Shown: positions 2,878 to 22,842, counted from the stretch's first letter. The stretch: DNA of 23,325 bases from Candidatus Fermentibacterota bacterium (GCA_030620115.1 JAUXFG010000053.1:1-23325); one strand, 5' to 3'. The notes: generated by a model from the sequence alone, not told the origin. Translations and numbers: made by a program.

Positions 2878-4715
2878 GAACCCTCAGCCCTAACGAAACT
2901 CGGTGACATCGACATTGCCACAAACGACAAACTCCCTATCCCACTCGCCAACCGGGTTCGTTGGGGCCGAGGTCTGCCCCCCTGGGCCTGTCCCACCAGC
3001 CGGTAGAAGGCATTCACCCCTTCTACGCCCAGAAGGCCCGATGCAGGATCCGAATAAACGCTTTGCGCGCCTGGAAGCACGCCGAGGAGGTTCGATCTAT
3101 TCGGCACGAAGAAAGGCGCCTGGTCGCGGTACAGAAACCATGATGACACTGCCGGATCCACGTGGCTCCAGGAGAGCTCAATGCTTGCCTGCCCAAGTAC
3201 GGCACGGAGTACCGGGGATCCGATCTCGGACCATGCCTCGATCTTTCCACCATGGCTCACGATAAGTTCATCCATGCCGTCCCCGTCAAGATCACCAAGG
3301 GCCATGCCTCTACGCCATCCAGCCCCCTCCCCCCAGAGCTCCCAGACCAGATCGCCAGTGAGACCATCGAGTGCATAGAGGTAGCCGTCATTGGCGCCAA
3401 CGATGACCAGCGTACCATTCGCGTAGTGACATCCTATTGGCTCTCTCGTCTCTCCACGGCCAAAAACATCGAGCGAAACATGGGGCGCCTCGAACTCCCA
3501 GAGCAGCCTCCCATCGATCCCACTCCGGGCTCGTAGGCCACTCCGGTACACCACCTCAGTCACTTCTAGGGATGACGGGTCACCCTCTCGCATGTGCCCC
3601 CACCAGTCGCTGATGACATTGTACACCACGTCGACAGCTCCATCTTGATCAAGATCAGCCACCAGCGCATCGTAGATCTGATAATGGTGATCTCGGAATG
3701 ATAGCGTATCTCCATGCACATTGAGGAGAGCCGTAAAACCATTCCCGAGAATGCCCGTGGGCTCCTTCCAAGAAAGCTCTCCACTCTCTTCCAATACATA
3801 GTAGTTCATATCAGTGCCAAATCCCACCTCGGCTACGCCATCGCCATCAAAATCAGCGATGGCCGCTGACACATAGCCGAAGTCGGGCAGGTAGCCCAAT
3901 TCGTCCGGAATAAGCTCTAACTGCTCCTCACTCGGAGATGCGGTATAGTGCCATATCTCATCCCCGTCAGGATCAACAAAATAGAGTCGTTCTCTGACCT
4001 CAGGCGCATGCGCGGTGAAAAGAACACCGCGACGAGTACCCAGCACACCAATTGCGGGGATGTTATAGGTGGTCCCGCTTGTCTGGAATTCCCAATCAAC
4101 ATGCCCATGGATCCCCACAGAGCGTACTTTTCGCGGATTCTGATAGTCGGCCACCACGATCTCGGGTAGACCGTCACCATCAAGATCACCCGCGTTCATG
4201 CCCACCTGTGCGAGACCATCAAGCGCCACCCATAGCGTGTCACCATCCAAGCCCCGGAAGGCGTAGAGAGATGACCACCATGACCCGCCGATGACTACAT
4301 CTCGAAGCCCATCTCCGTCCACGTCGACCAGCACAGGAGATGCCCACTTCACATAGCCGTCTATGCGGGAAAACCACTTCAGGGAACCATCGTGTTCCAG
4401 CAGATAGACAAGCGCGTACTGTTGGTCCCCCTCATAGAGGGGACCAGATCCGCCCACGATTTCGGGAAACCCATCACCGTCCACATCTCCCACCGCAATG
4501 TAGGACCACGAAATACTCCCCTCCTGGGGCTCAAAAACCCACCTCAGGACGGGAGCACGGTTCAATGCCGCAAGAGCTGGCGAAAAAGCCCCGTTATGAG
4601 AAGACTGTCTTGGATTGGGCCACTCACCACAGGCGGCGTCACACGCAGGGAGCCCGAGAAAAATCAATAGGGCAAGTTCACGTCGTATTGCGAATCTATG
4701 ATACCCAACGTTCAT
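2868..4715 (-). CDS. secreted FG-GAP/VCBS beta-propeller protein with C-terminal Fn3-like domain; probable frameshift near 3' end
   Basis: 615 residues from ATG 4715 (MNVGYHRFAIRRELALL...); the frame opens at 4781, but this start gives a proper signal sequence ending LPAC (Cys25), so it is probably a lipoprotein. Six calcium-binding D-x-D-x-D-G loops lie near residues 77, 131, 177, 288, 354 and 475, the repeat of integrin-like FG-GAP propellers. Blades such as 'GYLYALDGLTGDLVWEL' resemble PQQ-type propellers. Residues ~500-578 resemble a fibronectin III domain ending 'AFYRLVGQAQGG'. After the G6 run at 2982-2977 the sequence turns into implausible Arg/Pro/Ser text. One extra G would continue as QTSAPTNPVGEWDREF... 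and stop at 2890. Likely surface-exposed, binding or structural. It diverges from the sulfatase-fold gene, with ~108 bases between starts. Confidence 0.85.
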   Translation of the reverse strand: MNVGYHRFAIRRELALLIFLGLPACDAACGEWPNPRQSSHNGAFSPALAALNRAPVLRWVFEPQEGSISWSYIAVGDVDGDGFPEIVGGSGPLYEGDQQYALVYLLEHDGSLKWFSRIDGYVKWASPVLVDVDGDGLRDVVIGGSWWSSLYAFRGLDGDTLWVALDGLAQVGMNAGDLDGDGLPEIVVADYQNPRKVRSVGIHGHVDWEFQTSGTTYNIPAIGVLGTRRGVLFTAHAPEVRERLYFVDPDGDEIWHYTASPSEEQLELIPDELGYLPDFGYVSAAIADFDGDGVAEVGFGTDMNYYVLEESGELSWKEPTGILGNGFTALLNVHGDTLSFRDHHYQIYDALVADLDQDGAVDVVYNVISDWWGHMREGDPSSLEVTEVVYRSGLRARSGIDGRLLWEFEAPHVSLDVFGRGETREPIGCHYANGTLVIVGANDGYLYALDGLTGDLVWELWGEGAGWRRGMALGDLDGDGMDELIVSHGGKIEAWSEIGSPVLRAVLGQASIELSWSHVDPAVSSWFLYRDQAPFFVPNRSNLLGVLPGAQSVYSDPASGLLGVEGVNAFYRLVGQAQGGRPRPQRTRLASGIGSLSFVAMSMSPSFVRAEGSIV

Positions 4716-4823
4716 TATCCCGCTGACACTGTCCAGAGTAATGAGCTGATTCAACCACGAAGAGACGCCATAGTCCGGCACTCAATCAGATCCATTGAAT
4801 CAATATCAAGGATGGCAGATACA

Positions 4824-6965
4824 ATGTCTACTCTAAAAGGCGATCTCAAGGCAGCGATCACGGTCGGGTATTTGGGAGGTCTCCTGCTTGCAGGTTTTGA
4901 GGGTCTCCATGCCTTGATCTCGACACACATTGGCCCAAGCAGCAAGACCATACGATCGGCCCAGGATCTGGCAGCAATCCTGGGCGCACCCGTGGCGGCA
5001 TATCCTGTGATCAGCGCCCTGAGCGCTTGTCTTCTCATCCTGATTGTGCATCCCTTATGGAAGCGACGTGCTGATACGGAAAACCGTGACACACGTGTTT
5101 CCCAGATCATCGGGCTGATCGCCGTGTTCGGTCTGATGATCTGGTCTATCTTCACGACGAACCCTTCCCTCAACAAGATGGTCATCCGGTCGGCGGTGCG
5201 GCTGCTGGTAAATGCGCAGATGATTGCCATAGCAGCTCTCGCAGGGTTAGGCATCGCGTGGCTGTGCCAAAGACTCTTCCTCAGGTTCTCCGTCCGAAGT
5301 GTGGCTCTTACAATTGCTGCCATATGGCCTGCAGTCATAGCATCCAGTCTCACCCTTCTTTGGGTCAAGCGCAACCTCACTTTCTGGCGCTCAACCTTGG
5401 CGGGAATCGCCGCCGGAGCCGGTCTCGTGCTTCTCCTCTTCGCACTTGTGGTAATCTCCAGGGTCTTGCTCAACCGCTTGTACAAATCCGGCGGAAACCT
5501 CGTACGATCACTGATTGTGCCGGTCGTTCTCTTCGTTCTCTCCATATGCTCGGTAGTCTATTGCCTGACGCCACGAGTGCCGACCCTTCATGGAGGAGAG
5601 AATGGCGCCGGACGAAAGATCATTCTCTTCACCATCGACACGCTCCGGTCTGACCGACTTGGATGCTATGGATATCAGCGCGATACCTCTCCAATCATGG
5701 ACGCCATGGCAAGGGAAGGCGTTCGATTTGTCAGGGCGCGTACCCAGTCGCCATGGACATTGTCTTCATTGGCCAGCATCATGACCAGCACCTATCCCAC
5801 GGTATGCTCCGTGATGACTGGGAACAATCGCCTCGATGAAGCAAGAACGACCATTGCTGAAAGCATGCGAGATGCGGGCCTCCTGACCCACGCAATCGTC
5901 TCCAATGGTTGGCTCCAGGATACATTTGGGCTCTCCCAGGGATTTATCGGCTTCCACCATTCTTCCGACGTGTTCAACTGGACCAGATACGGGAGGATGA
6001 TCTGGTTGCGAATAGCCAAGAGGTTTTTCCCGGGATTGTTCCCCGTGGGTCAGAATTTCCTTGCCACTGACCTTGTCGACCGGGCCAACGAATGGCTCCA
6101 GGAGTATGGCGACAGGGATTTCTTCCTCTGGATCCATGCGATTGACCCCCATGACCCATACCTCACTCCGGATGGCTATGAGGACGTGTTCGAAGACAGC
6201 ACATACAAGGGCCGATTCAAGAGAATGTCGGGTCTGCTCTATACTCTGCGTTATGGAACACGCTTGCGCCCCGAGGACAAGGCCCAACTGGAGAATCTGT
6301 ACGATAGGGAAGTCCGCTACACCGATGACCATCTCGGTCGCCTCGTCCAGACCCTACGTGATCTTGGCATCTACGACGAGACACTCCTCATCGTGAGTTC
6401 CGACCACGGGGAGGAGTTCTGGGAACATGACGGCCTTATGCATGGCCACAGCCTCTATGAAGATCAGCTCTTGGTTCCTCTCATCATGCGGTATCCATCC
6501 AGGCTCCCGAAAGGGCTGGCAATCGAGGAACCGGTTCGCCTTCTTGATCTCATGCCCACCCTGCTGGATCTATTCGACCTCCGGTTTCCGGACGAGGTCC
6601 AGGGAAGAAGCCTGCTGCCCTTGCTATTTGGGCGACCAAGCTCGTGGATGGAGGAGCCCGCTTATGCCGAGGCATTACTGTACTTCGATGAGCTCAAGTC
6701 AGTGAGCCGCAATGGCTACAAGCTCATCCTGAACCCTTCCAATGACAAGACAATGCTCTTTGACATCAACGCCGATCCGCTCGAACGATGGGATCTTGCA
6801 CAAGCGGAGCCCGAACTACTGAAGCGTCTTGAGGAGGACCTCAGGGGTTGGATGAGACGATCGGAACAGACTGCGGAGAATCTTCCGAAAAGCATAGGCG
6901 GCAGTAAGGCACGAATCGATCCGGAAACCGAAGCGCAACTCCGCGCACTGGGATACCTCCACTGA
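4824..6965 (+). CDS. membrane-anchored sulfatase-fold (alkaline phosphatase superfamily) enzyme
   Basis: 713 residues from ATG 4824 (AAGGA 11 nt upstream; ATG 4812 is also possible). About seven transmembrane helices occupy the first ~250 residues. The rest is a sulfatase-type domain: KIILFTIDTLRSDRLG (metal Asp272), SPWTLSSLASIMTS, HAIDPHDPY (~438), SSDHGEEFWEHDGLMHGHS (Asp527, His528) and the common tail LRALGYLH. The sulfatase C/S-x-P-x-R formylglycine site is not present: Thr312 aligns with the modified Cys, as in LTA-synthase and phosphoethanolamine-transferase-like members that use Thr as nucleophile. A phospho-transfer or phosphodiester reaction on envelope polymers or lipids is therefore more likely than sulfate removal. 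The substrate is unknown. Four bases separate it from the downstream methyltransferase, so the two are probably co-transcribed. Confidence 0.88.
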   Translation: MSTLKGDLKAAITVGYLGGLLLAGFEGLHALISTHIGPSSKTIRSAQDLAAILGAPVAAYPVISALSACLLILIVHPLWKRRADTENRDTRVSQIIGLIAVFGLMIWSIFTTNPSLNKMVIRSAVRLLVNAQMIAIAALAGLGIAWLCQRLFLRFSVRSVALTIAAIWPAVIASSLTLLWVKRNLTFWRSTLAGIAAGAGLVLLLFALVVISRVLLNRLYKSGGNLVRSLIVPVVLFVLSICSVVYCLTPRVPTLHGGENGAGRKIILFTIDTLRSDRLGCYGYQRDTSPIMDAMAREGVRFVRARTQSPWTLSSLASIMTSTYPTVCSVMTGNNRLDEARTTIAESMRDAGLLTHAIVSNGWLQDTFGLSQGFIGFHHSSDVFNWTRYGRMIWLRIAKRFFPGLFPVGQNFLATDLVDRANEWLQEYGDRDFFLWIHAIDPHDPYLTPDGYEDVFEDSTYKGRFKRMSGLLYTLRYGTRLRPEDKAQLENLYDREVRYTDDHLGRLVQTLRDLGIYDETLLIVSSDHGEEFWEHDGLMHGHSLYEDQLLVPLIMRYPSRLPKGLAIEEPVRLLDLMPTLLDLFDLRFPDEVQGRSLLPLLFGRPSSWMEEPAYAEALLYFDELKSVSRNGYKLILNPSNDKTMLFDINADPLERWDLAQAEPELLKRLEEDLRGWMRRSEQTAENLPKSIGGSKARIDPETEAQLRALGYLH

Positions 6966-6969
6966 TCCC

Positions 6970-8091
6970 ATGAAACAATCCGCCCTCGCCTACCTTCGGT
7001 GTCCCGCATCAAGCGCTGAGACCGGCGCACTCTGTCTGGGAAAACTGTCCGTGGCAGCCAGCCCTTCTCCCCGATTCTCATCTCATGACGATGAAATCAC
7101 CGAAGGATGTCTCCGGTGCACATGCTGTGAGGCGATTTATCCTATCATTGCCGGTGTTGCCGTGCTTGTGCCAAGACCCTTCCGCTATGTGCGGAGCTTC
7201 TTCCCCTTCCTCAAGGGACTTGTTTCAGATATAGGAGGGATCGGAAAAGATCTCACGATCTGGCTCCACAAACATATGCTTGCTGACCTCGATGAGAAGC
7301 ACGAGAAGCTCTTTCCACGGACCACGCCATATAACGAAAAGAGCACGCTGCCCATGCACAAGTGGTTGGGGACCTATGTGCTGACCCATTACCTCAATCC
7401 AATGCCGTCAGGGAACGGGACGCTGGATGCCCTTCTCAATGCCGCCCATACGGAAGGGCCTCTGGCTCTTCTCGCAGACATGGGTCGGCGATTCCTGCAG
7501 ACAAAACCAAAACTCGCAGTTGATCTCGGATGTTCTGTGGGTGGCCTCACCACGCGATGCGCGGAGCTTGCTCATTTCGCCATTGGCGTGGATCTCAGCT
7601 TTGAGAAGATCCTGACGGCCCGCCGTATCGTTCTGGCTGAACCCCGAGAGCCCGATCCTCTTCGCTTGTATCGTGAAGGATCAAGTTACGATGCGATCCC
7701 AATTCCCGAGGTGGATGTATCCAATATCGAGTTTATCGTCGCATCTGGAACGGAAATCCCGCTGGCCCATGAGGCCACCGGTCTCGTCAGCAGCTGCAAC
7801 TTGGTTGACGTTGTCGCAGATCCACTCAAACTCCTGCAAGAAATGGAGCGGATTCTTTCCTCCGCCGGTCTCCTCCTTGTCGCCACACCTTATCTTGACC
7901 ATACACCCGCAGTAGTCAATCACCTGGAGGCGGGAACAGGCAAGCCGAAAGTCACCATCAAGGAGCACCTTTCGGCGTTTGACATTTTAGAAGAAAGGGA
8001 CCGCGTGCCCTGGCTCCTTAGAGCAAGCGATCGTCATTACGACCTGTATTTGGATCACTGTTTCGCGGCGATTCGGCGAGCAAAGAACTGA
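6970..8091 (+). CDS. SAM-dependent methyltransferase with Trm112-like N-terminal zinc domain
   Basis: 373 residues. The N-terminus has the Trm112/YcaR layout (LRCP at 9-12, then CLRCTCCEAIYPIIAGVAVLVP at about 47-68), followed by ~110 residues of linker and a class I methyltransferase: motif I AVDLGCSVGG (183-192), the acidic end of strand 2 in GVDLS (206-210), and a later 'SSCNLVDVVADPLKLLQEM' typical of the methyltransf_11/25 group. The usual CPxC pair has only its first Cys (Cys11), so the zinc site looks partly degraded, with Cys50 and Cys53 remaining. The target is unknown; small-molecule, lipid or glycan methylation would fit the partner gene. Start ATG is 4 nt after the previous stop, with no strong ribosome site, suggesting translational coupling. 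Its last 74 bases overlap the converging peptidase gene. Confidence 0.85.
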   Translation: MKQSALAYLRCPASSAETGALCLGKLSVAASPSPRFSSHDDEITEGCLRCTCCEAIYPIIAGVAVLVPRPFRYVRSFFPFLKGLVSDIGGIGKDLTIWLHKHMLADLDEKHEKLFPRTTPYNEKSTLPMHKWLGTYVLTHYLNPMPSGNGTLDALLNAAHTEGPLALLADMGRRFLQTKPKLAVDLGCSVGGLTTRCAELAHFAIGVDLSFEKILTARRIVLAEPREPDPLRLYREGSSYDAIPIPEVDVSNIEFIVASGTEIPLAHEATGLVSSCNLVDVVADPLKLLQEMERILSSAGLLLVATPYLDHTPAVVNHLEAGTGKPKVTIKEHLSAFDILEERDRVPWLLRASDRHYDLYLDHCFAAIRRAKN

Positions 8092-8966: not shown

Positions 8967-9821
8967 CTACTCGCCCGGCGGTGAGAAAAAACGCAGGACC
9001 TTGTGCAGTGCGGATTTGAGCTCCTTCCGTGGGACCACCATATCCACCATGCCATGATCAAGGAAGAATTCCGCCCGTTGAAAACCATCGGGCAGCTCTT
9101 GTCCGATAGTCCTTTGGATTACCCGGGGACCTGCAAACCCCAAGAGCGCTTTGGGTTCTGCAATCATGATGTCGCCAAGGCTCGCATAAGAGGCAAGCAC
9201 GCCGGCCGTTGAAGGATGGGTAAGGATTGAAACGAAGGGAACCCGATCTCGAACGAGTCTGGCTACCGCACCCGCAGTCTTCGCCATCTGCATCAGCGAG
9301 AGGATTCCCTCCTGCATGCGAGCCCCCCCAGTGGAGGTGATGGTCACCACCGCCATCCTATGCTCCCTCCCATGATCCATGATTCGTGCAATCTTCTCCC
9401 CCACCACGCTGCCCATGCTCCCGCCCATGAATGAGAACTCCAGCGCACCAATGGCAATCGGGATCCCTTCGACACTACCTGTACCCACGATCGCTGCGTC
9501 TTTGAGCCCAGTCTTTTTCTGACTTGCATTGAGCCGGTCGACATACGATTTGGTATCCCGGAAACCAAGAGGATCCGCCGGTGATAAATCTTGATACAGC
9601 TCTCCGAAGCTCCCCTGGTCAAGGAGTATCTCAAAATACTGCTTCGCGGGAATGCGGAAATGGTAGTTGCATTTGCTGCAGACCCAGAGCGCCCGCCTCA
9701 GCTGCCCCTCATAGAGGACTTCCCCACAGTCTTTGCACTTCAACCATACCCCCTTTGGGATATCCCTTTTCTTCTGCCGGGAAGGCCCCTTCGTGATCCG
9801 CCTATACCATGGAACGCTCAT
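8967..9821 (-). CDS. accD: acetyl-CoA carboxylase carboxyltransferase subunit beta
   Basis: 284 residues, full length for AccD (about 280-300). A zinc ribbon C29-x2-C32-x15-C48-x2-C51 lies at the N-terminus, as in bacterial AccD. Crotonase-fold blocks follow: FMGGSMGSVVGEKI (~131-144), STGGARMQEG (~163-172), HPSTAGVLASYASLGD (~202-217) and LLGFAGPRVIQRTI (~227-239), which build the oxyanion and CoA site. With AccA it transfers CO2 from carboxybiotin to acetyl-CoA in the first step of fatty-acid synthesis; the accA partner is not in this window. ATG 9821 has GAGGGAG about 8 nt upstream. It is not closely coupled to either neighbour: ~350 bases lie downstream and ~440 upstream. Confidence 0.97.
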   Translation of the reverse strand: MSVPWYRRITKGPSRQKKRDIPKGVWLKCKDCGEVLYEGQLRRALWVCSKCNYHFRIPAKQYFEILLDQGSFGELYQDLSPADPLGFRDTKSYVDRLNASQKKTGLKDAAIVGTGSVEGIPIAIGALEFSFMGGSMGSVVGEKIARIMDHGREHRMAVVTITSTGGARMQEGILSLMQMAKTAGAVARLVRDRVPFVSILTHPSTAGVLASYASLGDIMIAEPKALLGFAGPRVIQRTIGQELPDGFQRAEFFLDHGMVDMVVPRKELKSALHKVLRFFSPPGE

Positions 9822-9840
9822 AGTCGTGCTCCCTCTTCAC

Positions 9841-10267
9841 CTAACCCGAACTTCTCACCAATCCCGCGTCCGACGCGGGACTTCGTTATGCTCCATCAGC
9901 CTCCAGATACTTCGCTGACGCTCAGCACAGGCTTCTCGCAGAGGATACGCCTGCGGGCTACGCCACGGCGGAGCCAGGCTACGCCCTGACAGAGCCGGGG
10001 TCTTCAGTCGCAAGCCTCGCATTCAGAACCATTTCGGCGGTTTCGCTTCGAAAGCCGGCGAGAAGTCCGGGCTATTCCTGTTTCCAATCCACGGATCCAA
10101 GAGCAACAGAACCACACGAAGGAAACGCTCGCGCTCAGTCGAAGAGCAAAATCGCCGCGTCCCAGATTCCATGCGGATCATAGGATGATCGCGCAATTGA
10201 GCAATGAAAGAAATGCCGCCGCCTGGCTTTATCAAATCACAATCTCGCCTAGCCCGGACTTCTCACC
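9841..10267. repeat. ~0.4 kb spacer element bounded by direct repeats
   Basis: Direct repeats ctaacccgaacttctcacc (9841-9859) and ctagcccggacttctcacc (10249-10267) match at 17 of 19 bases, 408 bases apart. An inverted copy lies between them at 10057-10074 (ggcgagaagtccgggcta). An internal 9-bp palindrome is at 9862-9880 (tcccgcgtc-c-gacgcggga). The segment fills nearly the whole accD-porX gap. A 70-codon frame inside it (10023-10235, -) has no ribosome site or recognisable fold and I do not call it a gene. The right repeat includes the porX stop codon. A fourth relative of the motif follows the glycosyltransferase stop at 22790. Confidence 0.6.
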
Positions 10268-11825
10268 GCGGTTCCATGATCGCAAGAGGCACAATCATTT
10301 CCTCTAACGATATACCTCCGTGCTGGAAGCCTCCATAATATTGCTTCTCGAACTCGCGATATCTTGTCGGATATACGAAATAGTAATCCTCTTTCGCAAT
10401 GATATAATCTGTGATGAGGTTGTCGGTTGGTAAACGATAATCCCTTGGATATTTCAGATGAATGGCGTGCCTGTCGTTGCATCCCAAGTTCCTGCCATAT
10501 TTATATCTTACATTTGTTGAGGTATCTCGATTGCCATAGACGCGAGTTGCCCGAAGAGACAGTATTGATCCATGATCAGAAGTCACAATCACGAGGTTAT
10601 CCTGATCCGATAGATCCTTCAGGAGCTCAAGCAGGGCGGAGTGGCTGAACCAGGATTTCGTGAGACCGCGCAGGGCCGCCTCGTCAGGAACTATCTCCTT
10701 CAGAATGTCGGAATGGGAACGACCATGGGTAAGGATATCCACAAAACTGTACACCACAGCCGAAAGATCATGGGTAATCATCTGACCCCTCGCCCGCCGA
10801 GCTGACTCGGCCTCAGAGGCGTTGAAAACCTTCTGGTAGTAGACACCCTTCCGAAGCTTGAGGCCAAGACGTCGTAACAATTCAATCAGGAATTCTTTTT
10901 CGTGTCGATTCCTCGAGGTCTCCTCTGCCGATGCGGCTGACCAGAATGCGGGATATCGAACAGCCATCTCTGAGGGATACAAGCCCGAGAAAATGGCGTT
11001 CCTGGAATAGGGAGTCGCCGTAGGGAGAATCGCATAGTGATCCTCTCGTCTTATATTGTAGTAGGGCCGGACAAGCGGCTCCACTGCCATCCATTGATCC
11101 AACCTCATTCCATCGATAATGAGGAATACGACATTTCGTCCCGCCCGCAGATGTGGCGCGATGTGGGTTCGGACCACATCAACGGACATGAGTGGAGCAT
11201 CCTTGCCCTTCACCCATGTATGGTAATTCTCTTCAACAAAATGCGCGAAATCCACGTTGCAGGCGCTCCTGTGATCCCGATGCGATTGCTTCATTGCTTC
11301 ATCACTGCTGCCGTCCAATCGCAGATCCCACTCGCAGAGTTGGGTTGCGAGTCGAATCCAATCGGAGGCAGTCGAGGCACTCTGTCTCCCGCGATCGAGT
11401 TCAGCATACGATCGTGCAAACTCCCCGGCCAGACTAGTCTCACGTATGCGCGCCTTCTCAAGGATCCTCCGGCAAGCTGAATAGACCTGAACGGGGTTCA
11501 ATGGTTTGATGAGGAAGTCGTCGATTCTCTTTGCAATGGCCTGATCCATCAGGCTCTCATCTTCGCTCTTGGTGATCATGATCACGGGAAGCTCCGAGTT
11601 GATGGTCTTGATCTCCTCCAGCGTGCTCAGCCCGTCTCTCCCCGCCATCATTTCGTCAAGAAGCACCAAATCATACGATTCTCTTTGCACGTAATGAATG
11701 GCATCGCCGCCATTGCTCGCAGGTCTGACGACACACCCCTTCTTTTCTAAAAAGATGATATGCGGGCGGAGCATGTCTATCTCATCGTCCACCCAGAGAA
11801 TACGGTACGATCTCGGTGCTTTCAT
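10263..11825 (-). CDS. porX: PorX-type response regulator with PglZ/alkaline-phosphatase-fold output domain
   Basis: 520 residues, the size of Bacteroidota PorX. The receiver domain (~5-125) has Asp13/Asp14, phospho-acceptor Asp57 (YDLVLLDEMM), Thr85 and Lys107. A helical linker follows. The PglZ-type domain (~230-520) has LIIDGMRLDQW (Asp238), PTATPYSRNAIFSGL with candidate nucleophile Thr271, FVDILTHGRSHSD (~361-373) and VTSDHGS (Asp417, His418), the metal and catalytic residues of the alkaline phosphatase superfamily. In Porphyromonas and Flavobacterium PorX regulates type IX secretion, and the domain has been reported to cleave cyclic/linear oligonucleotides. ATG 11825 overlaps the kinase stop as ATGA; the longer frame to 11963 lies within the kinase gene. 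No T9SS genes are in the window, so its output here is open. Confidence 0.93.
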   Translation of the reverse strand: MKAPRSYRILWVDDEIDMLRPHIIFLEKKGCVVRPASNGGDAIHYVQRESYDLVLLDEMMAGRDGLSTLEEIKTINSELPVIMITKSEDESLMDQAIAKRIDDFLIKPLNPVQVYSACRRILEKARIRETSLAGEFARSYAELDRGRQSASTASDWIRLATQLCEWDLRLDGSSDEAMKQSHRDHRSACNVDFAHFVEENYHTWVKGKDAPLMSVDVVRTHIAPHLRAGRNVVFLIIDGMRLDQWMAVEPLVRPYYNIRREDHYAILPTATPYSRNAIFSGLYPSEMAVRYPAFWSAASAEETSRNRHEKEFLIELLRRLGLKLRKGVYYQKVFNASEAESARRARGQMITHDLSAVVYSFVDILTHGRSHSDILKEIVPDEAALRGLTKSWFSHSALLELLKDLSDQDNLVIVTSDHGSILSLRATRVYGNRDTSTNVRYKYGRNLGCNDRHAIHLKYPRDYRLPTDNLITDYIIAKEDYYFVYPTRYREFEKQYYGGFQHGGISLEEMIVPLAIMEPR

Positions 11826-13087
11826 CGCTTCTTTTCCCTCACTGCAGCGGGGAGGACAATCGCAACAAGAGTGCCTTGGGTGGGCCGACTCCGGACAATC
11901 TTGAGCTTCCCGCCATGATATTCCTCCACAATCCGCCGTGCCATGGCCAGACCAAGCCCCCACCCTCTCTCTTTGGTTGAGAACCCTGGCCGGAAGGCCC
12001 TGCTTTGCACGCGCCCCGTCATGCCATGACCAGTGTCCTCAATCTGGATACAGACCCCCCTGTCATTCGGTTCCATGGAAGCACGGAATACAATCTCCCC
12101 CGTGCCGCCGAGCGCCTCCAGACTATTCCTGACAAGATTCTCGAGAACCCAGGTCAGCAAGTCCCGGTTCGCCATCACCGGCGCTAGTTGCGCATATTCC
12201 TCCCGGATTGCCACCTTTTCGCCTTGTCTCGGCAGACGGGCACGAAAATACATGGCGGTCTCTTCAAGCAATGGATGCACATCCATGATCTCCAGATGCG
12301 GCGGATGCCCAATCCTCTCGAATCTCCTGGCGATCTTGGCCAAGCGATCGATATCCTGTTCCATCTCCTGTGCGATATCTTCGACGCCGACCGTCGTATC
12401 GGAATCTTCTTCGTGTTCCTTGAGCAGCTGAACCCACCCCAGCAACGATGTGATTGGGGTTCCGAGTTGGTGTGCCGCCTCCCGTGCCATTCCAAACCAC
12501 AATGATCGTTGTTCTACCGCCTTCAACCGCCTGAGTCCCAGCAGTCCAATCAGAACAAAAAGCCCCACTATGGCCACCTCGAGCGGTGGAATCCATCTCA
12601 GTTCCCGCAAGACCTTGTGTTCGCCCCAGTGAAGGTATCCCAACACCTGTCCATCCGTCTGAGATCGCAACGGAATCGCCCCATGCATCCGGTCCATCGC
12701 CTTGACAGCAGCTATTACATGCGCTGGCTGCTCTGCCAGAAGGCTGCCCATTGCTGCCGGCACACCGACAGTGAATAACACATGCCCATCTTGATCAGTC
12801 ACGACAACCGGCAGATTCGTCTGCAGGATGGCACATATCTCTCGAAAAAGAGGCGCAAGATTGGATATCTCTGCTTGGGTCGTGTCTGCCGCTTCGCTCT
12901 CCAACAATCGTCGCAGTATGCGCACCACGGCGTTGCCCTGACGTTCGACTCGATTCACCACTGATTGCGTGTACACCAAGAAACCAAATGCCAGAATTAA
13001 TGATCCTATGACCAGATACCCTCGAAGCAGGCCCCATGGCCAGAACCAGGATGGCTCCTTCTGCTTCCCGGTCATCCCGCGCCGCAC
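11822..13087 (-). CDS. membrane sensor histidine kinase, partner of PorX-type regulator
   Basis: 421 residues from GTG 13087, which has TAGAGG five bases upstream overlapping the serS stop; ATG 13075 is the alternative. TM1 is ~21-41 and TM2 ~168-187, enclosing a ~125-residue extracytoplasmic sensor region of no recognised family. The dimerisation box is AREAAHQLGTPITSLLGW with phospho-acceptor His206. ATPase motifs: N-box ENLVRNSLEAL (~316-326), G1 DTGHGM (351-356), F-box FRPGFST and G2 GWGLGL (375-380). The H-x-(L/I)-GTP-x-SSLLGW form of the H-box is common among FCB-group kinases. It overlaps porX by ATGA and starts ~8 nt after serS, so the three genes should share a transcript. It is very likely the kinase for the adjacent regulator, as PorY is for PorX, but orthology with PorY is not shown. 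Confidence 0.93.
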   Translation of the reverse strand: MRRGMTGKQKEPSWFWPWGLLRGYLVIGSLILAFGFLVYTQSVVNRVERQGNAVVRILRRLLESEAADTTQAEISNLAPLFREICAILQTNLPVVVTDQDGHVLFTVGVPAAMGSLLAEQPAHVIAAVKAMDRMHGAIPLRSQTDGQVLGYLHWGEHKVLRELRWIPPLEVAIVGLFVLIGLLGLRRLKAVEQRSLWFGMAREAAHQLGTPITSLLGWVQLLKEHEEDSDTTVGVEDIAQEMEQDIDRLAKIARRFERIGHPPHLEIMDVHPLLEETAMYFRARLPRQGEKVAIREEYAQLAPVMANRDLLTWVLENLVRNSLEALGGTGEIVFRASMEPNDRGVCIQIEDTGHGMTGRVQSRAFRPGFSTKERGWGLGLAMARRIVEEYHGGKLKIVRSRPTQGTLVAIVLPAAVREKKR

Positions 13088-13095
13088 TGTGGCCT

Positions 13096-14376
13096 CTACG
13101 TCGTCCCGGTCAGAAACGCTCGCCCTCCGAGATAGGGGCGCAGAGCCTCCGGAATGGCGACAGTACCCTCCGCGGTCTGATTGTTCTCGAGAAGGGCCGC
13201 AATTACCCTGGGAAGAGCAAGCCCGGAGCCATTGATGGTATGCAGAAAACATGGCTTGACGCCCGAGGATGGGCGATATCTGATCCCGGTCCTGCGGGCC
13301 TGAAAATCCTCGAAATTGCTGCATGAAGACACTTCGAGCCACCGCTCCTGCCCTGCTGCCCACACTTCAAGATCATAACATTTGGCAGCCGCGAAACTGA
13401 GATCACCGGTACAGAGGCTAAGCACGCGATAGGGCAGCTCCAGGAGTTGAAGCACCTCCTCCGCATCAGCAAGCAGGCTTTCAAGTTCGTCATAGGATCG
13501 CTCCGGCTCGGCTATTCTTACCAGTTCCACCTTGCCGAACTGGTGGACCCGGTTGAGTCCCCGAGTGTCTTTTCCATAAGCTCCCGCTTCCCTTCTGAAA
13601 CATGAAGTGAAGGCCACCAATCGAAGTGGAAGCTGATCGCTCCGAAGGATCTCGCCCCGGAAGATATTGGTCAGCGGGACTTCGCCCGTGGGGATGAGGA
13701 ACAACTCGGGGCTCACGCACACGTACATGTCATCTTCGAGCTTCGGAAGCTGTCCCGTTCCCACCATCGCTTGCCGAGTGGCGAGGAATGGGGGCCAATA
13801 CTCCGTGTAACCATGCTCTCTCGTATGCAGATCAAGCATGAAATTGATCAACCCACGGACGAGAAGAGCCCCATGCCCGGAATAGAGTGAGAAATTGCTT
13901 CCCGCCAGCTTCGCAGCCCGCTCCTGGTCAAGCAAGCTCAGAGCCGAGCCAAGATCCCAGTGTGGCGCAGGATCGAAGCTGAATTCCGGTTTCTCCCCCC
14001 ATGTACGGTCAACGACATTCTCGCCGGGGCCTCCTCCCACGGGTACCGAGACATGGGGGACATTCGGGAGCCAGAGGAGGAGATCGTGGAGCTCCTCTTT
14101 TGGGGGCTTCAATTCGTCTTCGATCTGCTTGATGGCGGCATTGATCCCGCGAACGCGTTCCCGCATCTGTGGTGCATCGGCGGCTTGTCCCCGGCTCTTT
14201 GCAAGCATTCCGGATAGCTTGTTCTTCTCCGCTCGCAGCTGATCGATTTCGAAAGCGGCCTTTCGAACTTCCTGATCCAACGCCAGAATCCTCTCCACAG
14301 AGACATCCACGTGCTTGGCACGCACAGCCTCACGTATGAGGTCCGGCTCCTCCCTGATACGCCGCAAATCAAGCAT
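13096..14376 (-). CDS. serS: seryl-tRNA synthetase
   Basis: 426 residues, the normal length. The N-terminal coiled-coil arm (~30-100; LDQEVRKAAFEIDQLRAEKNKLS) binds the long variable arm of tRNA-Ser. The class II core has the TGEVPLTN loop (~230-237), motif 2 (FRREAGAYGKDTRGLNRVHQF, ~260-280, split here as FRREAGAYGKD and TRGLNRVHQF), and motif 3 NGSGLALPRVIAALLENNQ (382-400). It charges tRNA-Ser with serine in the cytoplasm. ATG 14376 has GGGGAG 5 nt upstream. It is the first gene of a block that continues into the histidine kinase with an 8-nt gap. Co-transcription of an essential synthetase with a two-component system would give the regulator steady expression. Confidence 0.97.
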   Translation of the reverse strand: MLDLRRIREEPDLIREAVRAKHVDVSVERILALDQEVRKAAFEIDQLRAEKNKLSGMLAKSRGQAADAPQMRERVRGINAAIKQIEDELKPPKEELHDLLLWLPNVPHVSVPVGGGPGENVVDRTWGEKPEFSFDPAPHWDLGSALSLLDQERAAKLAGSNFSLYSGHGALLVRGLINFMLDLHTREHGYTEYWPPFLATRQAMVGTGQLPKLEDDMYVCVSPELFLIPTGEVPLTNIFRGEILRSDQLPLRLVAFTSCFRREAGAYGKDTRGLNRVHQFGKVELVRIAEPERSYDELESLLADAEEVLQLLELPYRVLSLCTGDLSFAAAKCYDLEVWAAGQERWLEVSSCSNFEDFQARRTGIRYRPSSGVKPCFLHTINGSGLALPRVIAALLENNQTAEGTVAIPEALRPYLGGRAFLTGTT

Positions 14377-14767
14377 ACTGACTCCCCATAGTGGACTAAT
14401 ACTCCGACGCTTCAGGTTGTGCGAGTGTTCAGGGGTTCAGCGTTCAGAGTTCAGTGCGGCCTCTGATCGCTGTGCAATCAGTTTTTTCGGGGTAGAGAGT
14501 ACCGAATGTCAGTCTTCACTCCCTCCAAACCCGGTGAACGATTACGGGATACAATTTCGGTCAATCTCCCTCGTTATCCGTAATCGTCGCCGTAATCGTC
14601 AACCGATTCCCCGGTTTCAGAGTTGTCACAAAACTTCTGACAGTACCAAGCCACATGAATCAGGTACTCTCAAACAAGGAAAAAACCTGGTCCATAGCCG
14701 CTGACCCCCCGAACACCGAACACCGATTTGTCTGACTCATCTACTCAAACAATCAAAATGTAAGGAG
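14377..14767. repeat. intergenic spacer with GTTCAG-type degenerate repeats
   Basis: No gene is visible in ~390 bases. The serS-proximal part is a run of gttcag units (gttcaggggttcagcgttca starting near 14428, then gagttcag), like the spacers at 2776 and 8719. Another run, accgaacaccgaacaccga, lies near 14707-14726. The serS promoter should lie close to 14400, but I see no convincing one. Confidence 0.5.
14735..14754 (-). repeat. 20-nt motif near stop codon, copy 2
   Basis: On the + strand actcatctactcaaacaatc, 18 of 20 identical to 2858-2877. It sits 13 nt beyond the TAG of the Fn3-type lipoprotein. Whether it is a 3'-UTR signal or a fragment of an interspersed repeat cannot be told from two copies. 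Confidence 0.4.
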
Positions 14768-20795: not shown

Positions 20796-22792
20796 AGAGG
20801 TGGTTCATCCTCCTGCTCTTCGTTGCCGCTGCACTCATGACCATCCAGCTCTCGGCCCACAAAACACCATGGCTCATGGCCGATGAAACCATGTACGCGA
20901 GAGGGGCCTGGAGCCTGCTTCATAAGGGATTCATCTTTCCTCAAGTGCCGGGAGCCATGAACTACCCCCCCCTCTACCCCCTATTGCTCTCCCCCGCAAG
21001 CATAATTGGAGATCTGCGGATGGCCCATGCGGCCTATCAGGGGATCAATCTCCTCCTTTTCCTGGCAGGGGCGACCTTGGTCTTCTATGCGGTCCGTCAA
21101 TCACGACGCAAAGATGCGGCATTGCCAATCGCGGCGCTCTACTTGGCGTGCCCCTCGATCACGGCATATGTACCACTGGTGATGAGCGAGAACCTCATGA
21201 CCCTGCTCATGTTGTGCGTCGCCGTTTCATTGCACAGGTGGGGCCGCACGGGGTCGGGACATTGGCTTATCGCGGGATGGGCCGCCGCGCTGCTTGCACC
21301 ATTTTGTAGAGGTACCGGTATCGTGGTCCCCGTGGCCTTTCTGTTCTCTATCGGGGGATTGAACCATACAAACCGGCACACGGCTATCTGGATACGGAGA
21401 GCTGCATTGGGAATCGGTCTTTTGGCCATGATTCTCCTTCTTGTACTGCCCACATCCATTCTGCGCCTCTACCACCCATTGCACACTGCGGCGGTGGTGT
21501 TCCGTTCACTTCTCTCACCAGACGGATGGGTTATTCTTGCCCGGAACATGCTCACGGAATCCCTCCTTCTGCTCGCAGGATCCGCCGGCCTGATATTGCT
21601 CTTGTTCTCCCCGGGGCTCGAGGATGAGCAGCCCGTACGCAGGTATCTGGTGATCTTGCTTGTCGGACTGTTGGCCGTAACGGTGGGCTATATGCAGTAC
21701 GGATCTCAGGGTCCCCACTCTGAGTTCTATCAAGCAATCCAGCGCTATCTTGACCCTGGGATCGGGGCAGTGTTGCCGTGGGTATTCATACTCCATCATC
21801 GGCCGAGACGGAGAATCTCGGTCATCTTGACAATCGCCGCCGGCATTGTCGCTCTGCTTCTCTGGCCCCATGCGGGATTCAAGCCTGGTCAGACTCTGGC
21901 GTCAGCCAGTGTTGGCCTTGCAACCGTTCCATTCCCTTCGCTCCTCTCCGGCATTCCGCCGAAGATGCTCGCAGCATTTCTGGTGATCGTGCCCGGGCTT
22001 GTTTCCCTCTTCTTCGTGTCGCGCCGCCCCGGTTTGGTAGCTCTGTATTGCATCCTGATCTTTCTACCGCTGACCCATGGCTCCCTCATGCATAGTAGAG
22101 CCATGAGCGCGGCACGTGAGAGAGCGGAACCGGCATTGTGGGAATTGAGCACACAAGTGCCCCCCAATGCAGAAATCGTGCTGCAGGAGCGTGACCTGAA
22201 CGACGAGTCCCTGGGAGCCCTCTACTCCGGTATCTTTTGGTTGCCTGCGAATCGCGTACGAGTCCTCGAAAACGTGCCGGTTCAGACAATTCAGGGGGAT
22301 CCAGTGATTCAGCTGACAAAACGTTGGCTCCCGGAAGAGCTGGTCCATGCAGGCTGTCACAAATGGTATATGCGCGGCCGTTCACGTATGCCGGTGGAGG
22401 CGTCCAGGCTCTTCTACGATTTCGGTTGGGGAGACAATGACATTCTGTTCTCCGCCCCACCCGCTGATTTCGGTGATGCCCGTTGGTCGGGGGAATCTCC
22501 GCTCATCGAGCTCCATCTCGCACCAAGAGATTATGTGCTCCATGTCGGGAACTCGTCTTTGCAGGGATATGGGTACTGCCAGGTCACCACATCAGTGAAT
22601 GATCATCGGATCGGAAGTCACACCACTGCTGATACGACGGCCACGATGATTCTGCCGAAAGCCTTTCTCAGATCCGATGGCCGACAGTTGCTCTCCTTTC
22701 GGGTCAGCCCGCGTGGCCCCCAACGGGATACAGGCCCCTGGGCCCTCGGTTTCCGCCTCGATTGGATATACTGTGAACCCGCTAACCTATAG
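20792..22792 (+). CDS. GT-C family membrane glycosyltransferase (GT39/PMT/ArnT-like)
   Basis: 666 residues. TM1 (MKRWFILLLFVAAALMTIQL) is followed by a first external loop with the GT-C acidic motif MADETMYARGAW (Asp31-Glu32) and NYPPLYPLLLSPAS, characteristic of the polyprenyl-phosphate-sugar-using family 39-like enzymes. About eleven further hydrophobic helices run to near residue 430; the last ~230 residues are a soluble, strand-rich domain on the outer side. It should move a sugar from a polyprenyl-phosphate donor to a protein, lipid or polymer in the periplasm; the acceptor is unknown. It overlaps the COG2521-like gene by 4 nt. Its stop codon TAG touches the interspersed repeat motif that also ends porX. 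Confidence 0.88.
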   Translation: MKRWFILLLFVAAALMTIQLSAHKTPWLMADETMYARGAWSLLHKGFIFPQVPGAMNYPPLYPLLLSPASIIGDLRMAHAAYQGINLLLFLAGATLVFYAVRQSRRKDAALPIAALYLACPSITAYVPLVMSENLMTLLMLCVAVSLHRWGRTGSGHWLIAGWAAALLAPFCRGTGIVVPVAFLFSIGGLNHTNRHTAIWIRRAALGIGLLAMILLLVLPTSILRLYHPLHTAAVVFRSLLSPDGWVILARNMLTESLLLLAGSAGLILLLFSPGLEDEQPVRRYLVILLVGLLAVTVGYMQYGSQGPHSEFYQAIQRYLDPGIGAVLPWVFILHHRPRRRISVILTIAAGIVALLLWPHAGFKPGQTLASASVGLATVPFPSLLSGIPPKMLAAFLVIVPGLVSLFFVSRRPGLVALYCILIFLPLTHGSLMHSRAMSAARERAEPALWELSTQVPPNAEIVLQERDLNDESLGALYSGIFWLPANRVRVLENVPVQTIQGDPVIQLTKRWLPEELVHAGCHKWYMRGRSRMPVEASRLFYDFGWGDNDILFSAPPADFGDARWSGESPLIELHLAPRDYVLHVGNSSLQGYGYCQVTTSVNDHRIGSHTTADTTATMILPKAFLRSDGRQLLSFRVSPRGPQRDTGPWALGFRLDWIYCEPANL

Positions 22793-22842
22793 CCCGAACT
22801 TCTCAACAAGTCCGTGCATCCAGCCTTCTCCCTTTCGCAAAG
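22790..22842. repeat. interspersed repeat, copy 2 (also end of glycosyltransferase gene)
   Basis: tagcccgaacttctcaacaa starts at the stop codon and is related to the direct repeats at 9841 and 10249. From 22797 the sequence aligns with the uvrC 5' repeat (18136-18183). This copy therefore links the two repeat families into one composite element. Confidence 0.6.

Follow-up and report, generated by a model that had tools for sequence, protein, structure and literature searches.

A predicted porY-porX operon in a Candidatus Fermentibacterota genome with SprA and without recognisable PorL/M

Gene content of the locus

The window, i.e., the whole stretch of 23,325 nucleotides analyzed here, corresponds to contig C185 in the assembly (4.1 Mb, 98% complete) of a Candidatus Fermentibacterota bacterium. 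On its minus strand lie, in this order, serS, a sensor histidine kinase gene, porX, a gap of 441 bases, and accD (Table 1). The stop codon of the kinase gene and the start codon of porX share an ATGA, as had been read from the DNA in a first-pass annotation, which also placed the pair, correctly, in a housekeeping block; serS and accD are identified by TIGRFAM models. Depending on whether the kinase gene starts with GTG at 13087 or with the alternative ATG at 13075, it begins 8 or 20 bases past the serS stop codon. The PorY-PorX pair has until now been known as the regulator of the type IX secretion system (T9SS) of Bacteroidota.

Table 1. Features of the porY-porX locus (window coordinates)
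Feature	Position	Strand	Basis or remark
accD, downstream end of conserved block	8967..9821	-	TIGRFAM models
porX: receiver, helical linker, and PglZ/alkaline-phosphatase-superfamily domain, 520 aa	10263..11825	-	model scores, PDB matches, tree
PglZ domain (Pfam stretch) of PorX	10560..11135	-	six ligand/catalytic residues inside; His502 outside
Codon of PorX phospho-acceptor Asp57	11655..11657	-	invariant in 111 sequences
ATGA overlap, porY stop/porX start	11822..11825	-	kinase TGA 11824-11822; porX ATG at 11825
Predicted porY orthologue: sensor histidine kinase, two TM, His206, HATPase	11822..13087	-	profile, topology, tree
Periplasmic sensor domain of kinase, PAS/CACHE-like in model	12602..12958	-	structure match
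serS, directly upstream of kinase; member of conserved block	13096..14376	-	TIGRFAM models

A scan for RNA families returned none in the window. Promoter-like matches were at chance level, and the six terminator-like matches, compared with 3.8 (sd 2.0) in shuffled sequences, were not clearly above it. A BamD-like TPR lipoprotein encoded in the window reaches only 25.6 bits with the PorW/SprE model, whose cut-off is 250. Short imperfect direct repeats of two families also occur in the window, either between genes or where genes end, one of 25 nt (9842-9866 and 22790-22814) and one of 30 nt (2851-2880 and 14728-14757). At 4698-8091, a gene for a membrane-anchored sulfatase-family protein is followed by one for a methyltransferase with a Trm112-like N-terminus, and the sister loci L002 and L003 each keep this gene pair near accD.

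PorX is full-length and keeps its phospho-acceptor and zinc site

The regulator scores 623 bits against the NCBIfam model NF052313 (T9SS_RR_PorX; curated cut-off 300) over model positions 2-513 of 513, and its receiver and PglZ domains score 83 and 56 bits, respectively. Its best PDB matches are the PorX structures 8p6f, 8ted, 7pv7, and 7pvk, which align over the full length with E values down to 5e-122. The first-pass annotation had named the protein PorX and had listed Asp57, Asp238, Thr271, Asp417, and His418 as intact; these scores uphold the name, and all five residues are present. The two-zinc/catalytic set as defined by PMC11320123 is complete (Asp238, Thr271, Asp363, His367, Asp417, His418, and His502), and the receiver residues Asp13, Asp14, Asp57, Thr85, and Lys107 are all in place. 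All seven zinc/catalytic and all five receiver residues are invariant across 111 aligned PorX proteins; as judged from the sequence, the output domain would have kept its entire metal-binding and catalytic outfit. At receiver position 104 the window protein has Phe, whereas 80 of the 111 proteins have Tyr. A BREX-type PglZ identity was rejected, with 105 bits for the BREX_PglZ_3 model against a cut-off of 250.

The nearest public PorX records stem from metagenome bins labelled 'Fermentibacteria' (75% identity) and 'Eisenbacteria' (73%). In the PorX tree, these two records and the window protein form one group (100), which is nested in a 31-row FCB clade (SH-aLRT 98) with Eisenbacteria, Krumholzibacteria, and Poribacteria, and the kinase gene adjoins porX in all but one member of this clade. 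Since the tree contained PorX proteins only and had no outgroup, membership in the family is judged from the score with the equivalog model and from homology over the full length.

The adjacent kinase is a predicted PorY orthologue

The kinase encoded upstream of porX has two transmembrane segments, seen as hydropathy maxima close to residues 18-44 and 163-191, with some 115 aa of periplasmic loop between them; an H-box with the phospho-acceptor His206 follows approximately 20 residues after the second segment and precedes the HATPase domain. Published PorY has 395 aa, transmembrane segments at 14-36 and 149-173, and its phospho-acceptor at His193. In most rows of the Bacteroidia homologues the H-box His is at 184-204 and the motif is the same. 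The modelled periplasmic domain matched the WalK extracellular domain best (rmsd 3.3, 109 aligned), with a Z of 9.5 that is only moderately above the common background, and its fold class is likely that of an extracytoplasmic PAS/CACHE-like sensor.

A kinase profile (A1) built from 26 FCB kinases was run against 60 genomes. Every PorX-bearing genome of the Bacteroidota-side sample contains one kinase of approximately 313 bits or more, with the next one at 135 bits or below, and in the eight PorX-less genomes of that sample no kinase exceeds 108 bits. In a tree of profile-aligned catalytic cores, all 69 top kinases fall on one side of a branch that separates them from 14 second-best kinases (SH-aLRT 99.4). 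Because the window kinase forms one clade with the unlinked kinase of PorX-bearing Bacteroidota and has the architecture of PorY, it is, on these sequence criteria, a PorY orthologue. It is highly improbable that an unrelated kinase has come to lie beside porX by chance in these phyla. Such a reading could appeal to the unlinked positions of porX and the kinase gene in Bacteroidota and to the fact that P. gingivalis PorY (PGN_2001) is not among the rows of the tree, but it would have to account for the single clade set against the second-best kinases, for a presence/absence pattern identical to that of PorX, and for a topology and H-box that are the same as in PorY.

The pair belongs to an old chromosomal block

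Gene order around porX was compared across 77 informative loci. The kinase gene lies directly upstream of porX in 43 of them, sprA does so in seven, and the remaining 27 have neither; serS precedes the kinase gene in 30 of the 43 kinase-porX loci. This recurrence argues that the arrangement is not due to chance. The first-pass annotation was right in regarding the kinase as coupled to the regulator. In Zixibacteria RBG-1 the block reads serS-porY-porX-tsaE-tsaB-rimI-accD-folC, and the same order, whole or in parts, is found in Eisenbacteria, Latescibacteria, Krumholzibacteria, and Gemmatimonadota, while in Poribacteria kinase-porX is retained and serS is not next to it. In Ignavibacteria-type loci the order is sprA-porX-tsaE-tsaB-accD, with sprA directly upstream of porX in seven loci and an overlap of the two genes by 4 nt in L034 and L063. 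The block serS-porY-porX(-tsaE-tsaB-rimI-)accD is old and common to several candidate phyla. The housekeeping setting of the pair hence reflects an old chromosomal arrangement and does not signal a housekeeping function.

Most FCB relatives have tsaE, tsaB, and rimI downstream of porX, but the stretch from porX to accD in the window (9821-10263) contains none of the three. The phylum sample available for comparison consists of three genomes. In the sister locus L002 (11548-12063), compared with L017:11546-13143, only rimI lies between porX and accD.

The genome encodes the outer-membrane half of a T9SS

None of the T9SS component families scanned by profile occurs within the window, so that the first-pass remark that no T9SS genes lie nearby holds for the window, but it misled as a hint, since SprA/Sov, PorV-family proteins, and sorting tails are encoded elsewhere in the same genome. 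The genome search recommended in that annotation thus recovered sprA/sov and sorting tails, but did not detect GldL, GldM, or GldN (PorL/M/N). SprA/Sov matches with 370 bits in one frame on contig C28 (cut-off 200), and the rest of the protein is encoded on contig C277. Because the ends of the two contigs overlap by 556 bp at 96.4% identity, these matches are most simply explained by a single sprA gene that is divided between them, possibly along with strain variation; two SprA paralogues, considered in view of two contigs with overlapping model positions, were set aside on the same ground. There are 14 PorV-family matches (best 217 bits, cut-off 90) to a model that spans PorV and PorQ relatives and does not single out PorV proper, and 39 T9SS C-terminal sorting tails (TIGR04183) at E <1e-5. 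Taken together, SprA, the PorV family, and the sorting tails rule out that the genome lacks a T9SS. The lineage had been described as one where T9SS is uncertain; given that the outer-membrane half of the system is present, there is no need to separate PorX from secretion.

Directly upstream of sprA lies a second two-component pair, consisting of a HisKA kinase and a 249-aa REC protein, together with a gene for an FHA-domain protein. The same order is seen at L205:3614-6003 on contig C28 and at L207:6908-9405 in a sister genome. This second pair possibly provides a second control of SprA.

Motor and ring proteins are not recognised

GldL (PorL) did not exceed the cut-off in any of 35 non-control FCB genomes, including the one studied here, and was detected in four of four positive controls. 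GldN (PorN), which stands for the PorK/N ring, was likewise found in none of these 35 genomes, again with responding positive controls; among 56 genomes, only the nine that are positive for GldL contain it. The profile search for GldM (PorM) returned no match in this genome, did not detect the protein in the other FCB-group genomes covered, and was run without positive controls, which makes this negative weaker than those for GldL and GldN.

Canonical T9SS control would require that the PorL/M motor and the PorK/N ring are present, too divergent for Bacteroidia-trained models, and that phospho-PorX, as it does in P. gingivalis and F. johnsoniae, binds a protein resembling PorL. Binding of PorX to PorL/GldL has been described for two Bacteroidia (PMC5005315, PMC10951265), and a partial, sub-threshold GldM match of 62.9 bits in a Rhodothermales genome indicates that divergent forms occur. 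We nevertheless consider this explanation unlikely, as genomes in which SprA, PorX, and PorV are easily recognised yield no GldL, GldM, or GldN, including those of Ignavibacteria, in which SprA scores above 800 bits, and as the same absence is described for the Incertae sedis class (Emrizal 2020, PMC7323717).

PorX, the kinase, and SprA occur together

The Bacteroidota-side sample comprises 43 genomes. The presence of PorX agrees with that of the kinase in all of them (35 with both, eight with neither) and with that of SprA in 42 (34 with both, eight with neither), whereas GldL is found in only nine of the 35 PorX-positive genomes. Three of the 43 genomes were reached through PorX, and leaving them aside gives 32 PorX-positive and eight PorX-negative genomes. 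The Fisher values of 6e-8 and 7e-9 are indicative only, as related genomes are non-independent and the values overstate the case. The discordant genome (G039) encodes GldL, GldN, PorX, and a PorY-type kinase and has no SprA match at all. As the FCB genomes were found through PorX, SprA in these genomes represents co-presence and not dependence. Poribacteria gave weak SprA matches only, and in three PorX-positive genomes, two of Latescibacterota (G006, G007) and one of Zixibacteria (SM1_73, G009), SprA was not over the cut-off. All three have sorting tails and PorV-family proteins as well as serS-kinase-porX (L010, L012, and L016). They may be incomplete bins or use a different channel.

These distributions also bear on the proposal that PorX is a general nucleotide-signal phosphodiesterase apart from secretion, with the serS-tsaE-accD setting reflecting a housekeeping role. 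The intact active site, the old and conserved block of translation and lipid genes, and the three PorX-positive genomes without recognisable SprA would all suit such a role. We regard it as quite improbable in view of the joint absence of PorX, kinase, and SprA from eight of eight PorX-less Bacteroidota-side genomes, the adjacency of sprA and porX in Ignavibacteria, and the SprA, PorV family, and sorting tails of the genome studied here. Regulation through degradation of a nucleotide signal, as put forward in the first-pass annotation, may nonetheless take place; this notion draws on the published in vitro activity of Bacteroidota PorX and on the conserved residues.

Discussion

The pair at this locus is probably an ordinary, active PorY and PorX of a type IX-like (SprA-type) secretion system without recognisable PorL/M, kept as an operon. 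In such a system, the periplasmic PAS/CACHE-like domain of PorY would sense an envelope signal, as its predicted fold implies. PorY would then autophosphorylate on His206 and pass the phosphate to Asp57 of PorX, by analogy with the P. gingivalis pair and in keeping with the conserved residues. Phosphorylation and zinc would promote dimerisation of PorX, whose PglZ domain would act as a zinc phosphodiesterase on oligonucleotides, as others have shown for PorX of Bacteroidota. Judging from co-occurrence and gene order, the output may adjust the production or activity of SprA/PorV export for cargo with sorting tails. Because GldL/PorL was not found in the genome, this last step probably does not proceed via binding to the PorL motor, barring a motor too divergent to recognise. 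We infer that SprA-dependent export in this organism is under the control of the pair and that PorL has no part in it. The presence of the channel, its partner proteins, and cargo tags without a detectable rotary motor points to a regulator that goes with the secretion channel and not with the motor.

A broader and more tentative idea is that control of the SprA/PorV channel by PorXY is ancestral across the FCB group, predating PorL/M and not depending on it. The CheY-like binding to PorL would then have been acquired later, in Bacteroidia, and in many candidate phyla SprA might work without the motor, drawing on a different source of energy.

Previous work on PorXY has described phosphotransfer from PorY to PorX, interactions of PorX with SigP and with PorL, and a zinc-dependent phosphodiesterase activity (PMC4800418, PMC5005315, PMC10951265, PMC11320123). 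The target of PorX is disputed between SigP and transcription, the PorL motor, and an oligonucleotide signal. Lineages with PorX, PorY, and SprA but no recognisable PorL/M/N offer a natural test of these models, since PorL binding cannot account for PorX in them, and the mechanistic interest of the present locus lies in a PorX without its proposed target PorL. An earlier survey restricted T9SS to Bacteroidetes (PMC4793230), whereas a later suggestion extends it to groups that include Gemmatimonadetes and Ignavibacteriota (PMC11285876). On T9SS in the candidate phyla considered here, the literature searched holds brief statements only; neither a porY-porX operon in these phyla nor co-inheritance of PorX, PorY, and SprA beyond Bacteroidota was found stated in the searchable literature. 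The operon supports the suggestion that T9SS-type export reaches past Bacteroidota.

Comparison with known systems

The PglZ domain-containing proteins of BREX phage defence share the phosphodiesterase/nuclease fold of the PorX output domain, but have no receiver domain and other partners, and the match at this locus is far below the model cut-off. F. johnsoniae PorX (Fjoh_2906; PDB 8ted, 8p6f) can be aligned with the window protein over residues 7-520 without large gaps, and its zinc ligands Asp237, Thr271, Asp360, His364, Asp414, His415, and His499 all have counterparts here. The F. johnsoniae protein binds GldL, whereas no GldL was found in the genome that contains the window. P. gingivalis PorX and PorY (PGN_1019 and PGN_2001) agree with the window pair in full-length architecture, in the phospho-acceptor Asp and His, and in all zinc ligands, and PorY shares with the window kinase two transmembrane segments around a periplasmic loop of approximately 115 aa and the lack of a HAMP domain. 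P. gingivalis has a PorK/L/M/N complex, and its two genes are not linked to each other, whereas in the window they form an overlapping operon after serS, in a genome in which GldL, GldM, and GldN were not detected; the operon thus provides genetic support, absent in P. gingivalis, for PorY and PorX as cognate partners.

PorX without PorK/L/M/N has a precedent in the reduced T9SS gene set that Emrizal and Nor Muhammad (2020; PMC7323717) reported for the Incertae sedis class of Bacteroidetes. As in the genome studied here, Sov, PorV, PorX, and PorY are present and the motor and ring are absent, which in our case was judged by GldL, GldM, and GldN. That case lies within Bacteroidetes, whereas the present one comes from a candidate phylum and has the kinase and the regulator in one operon.
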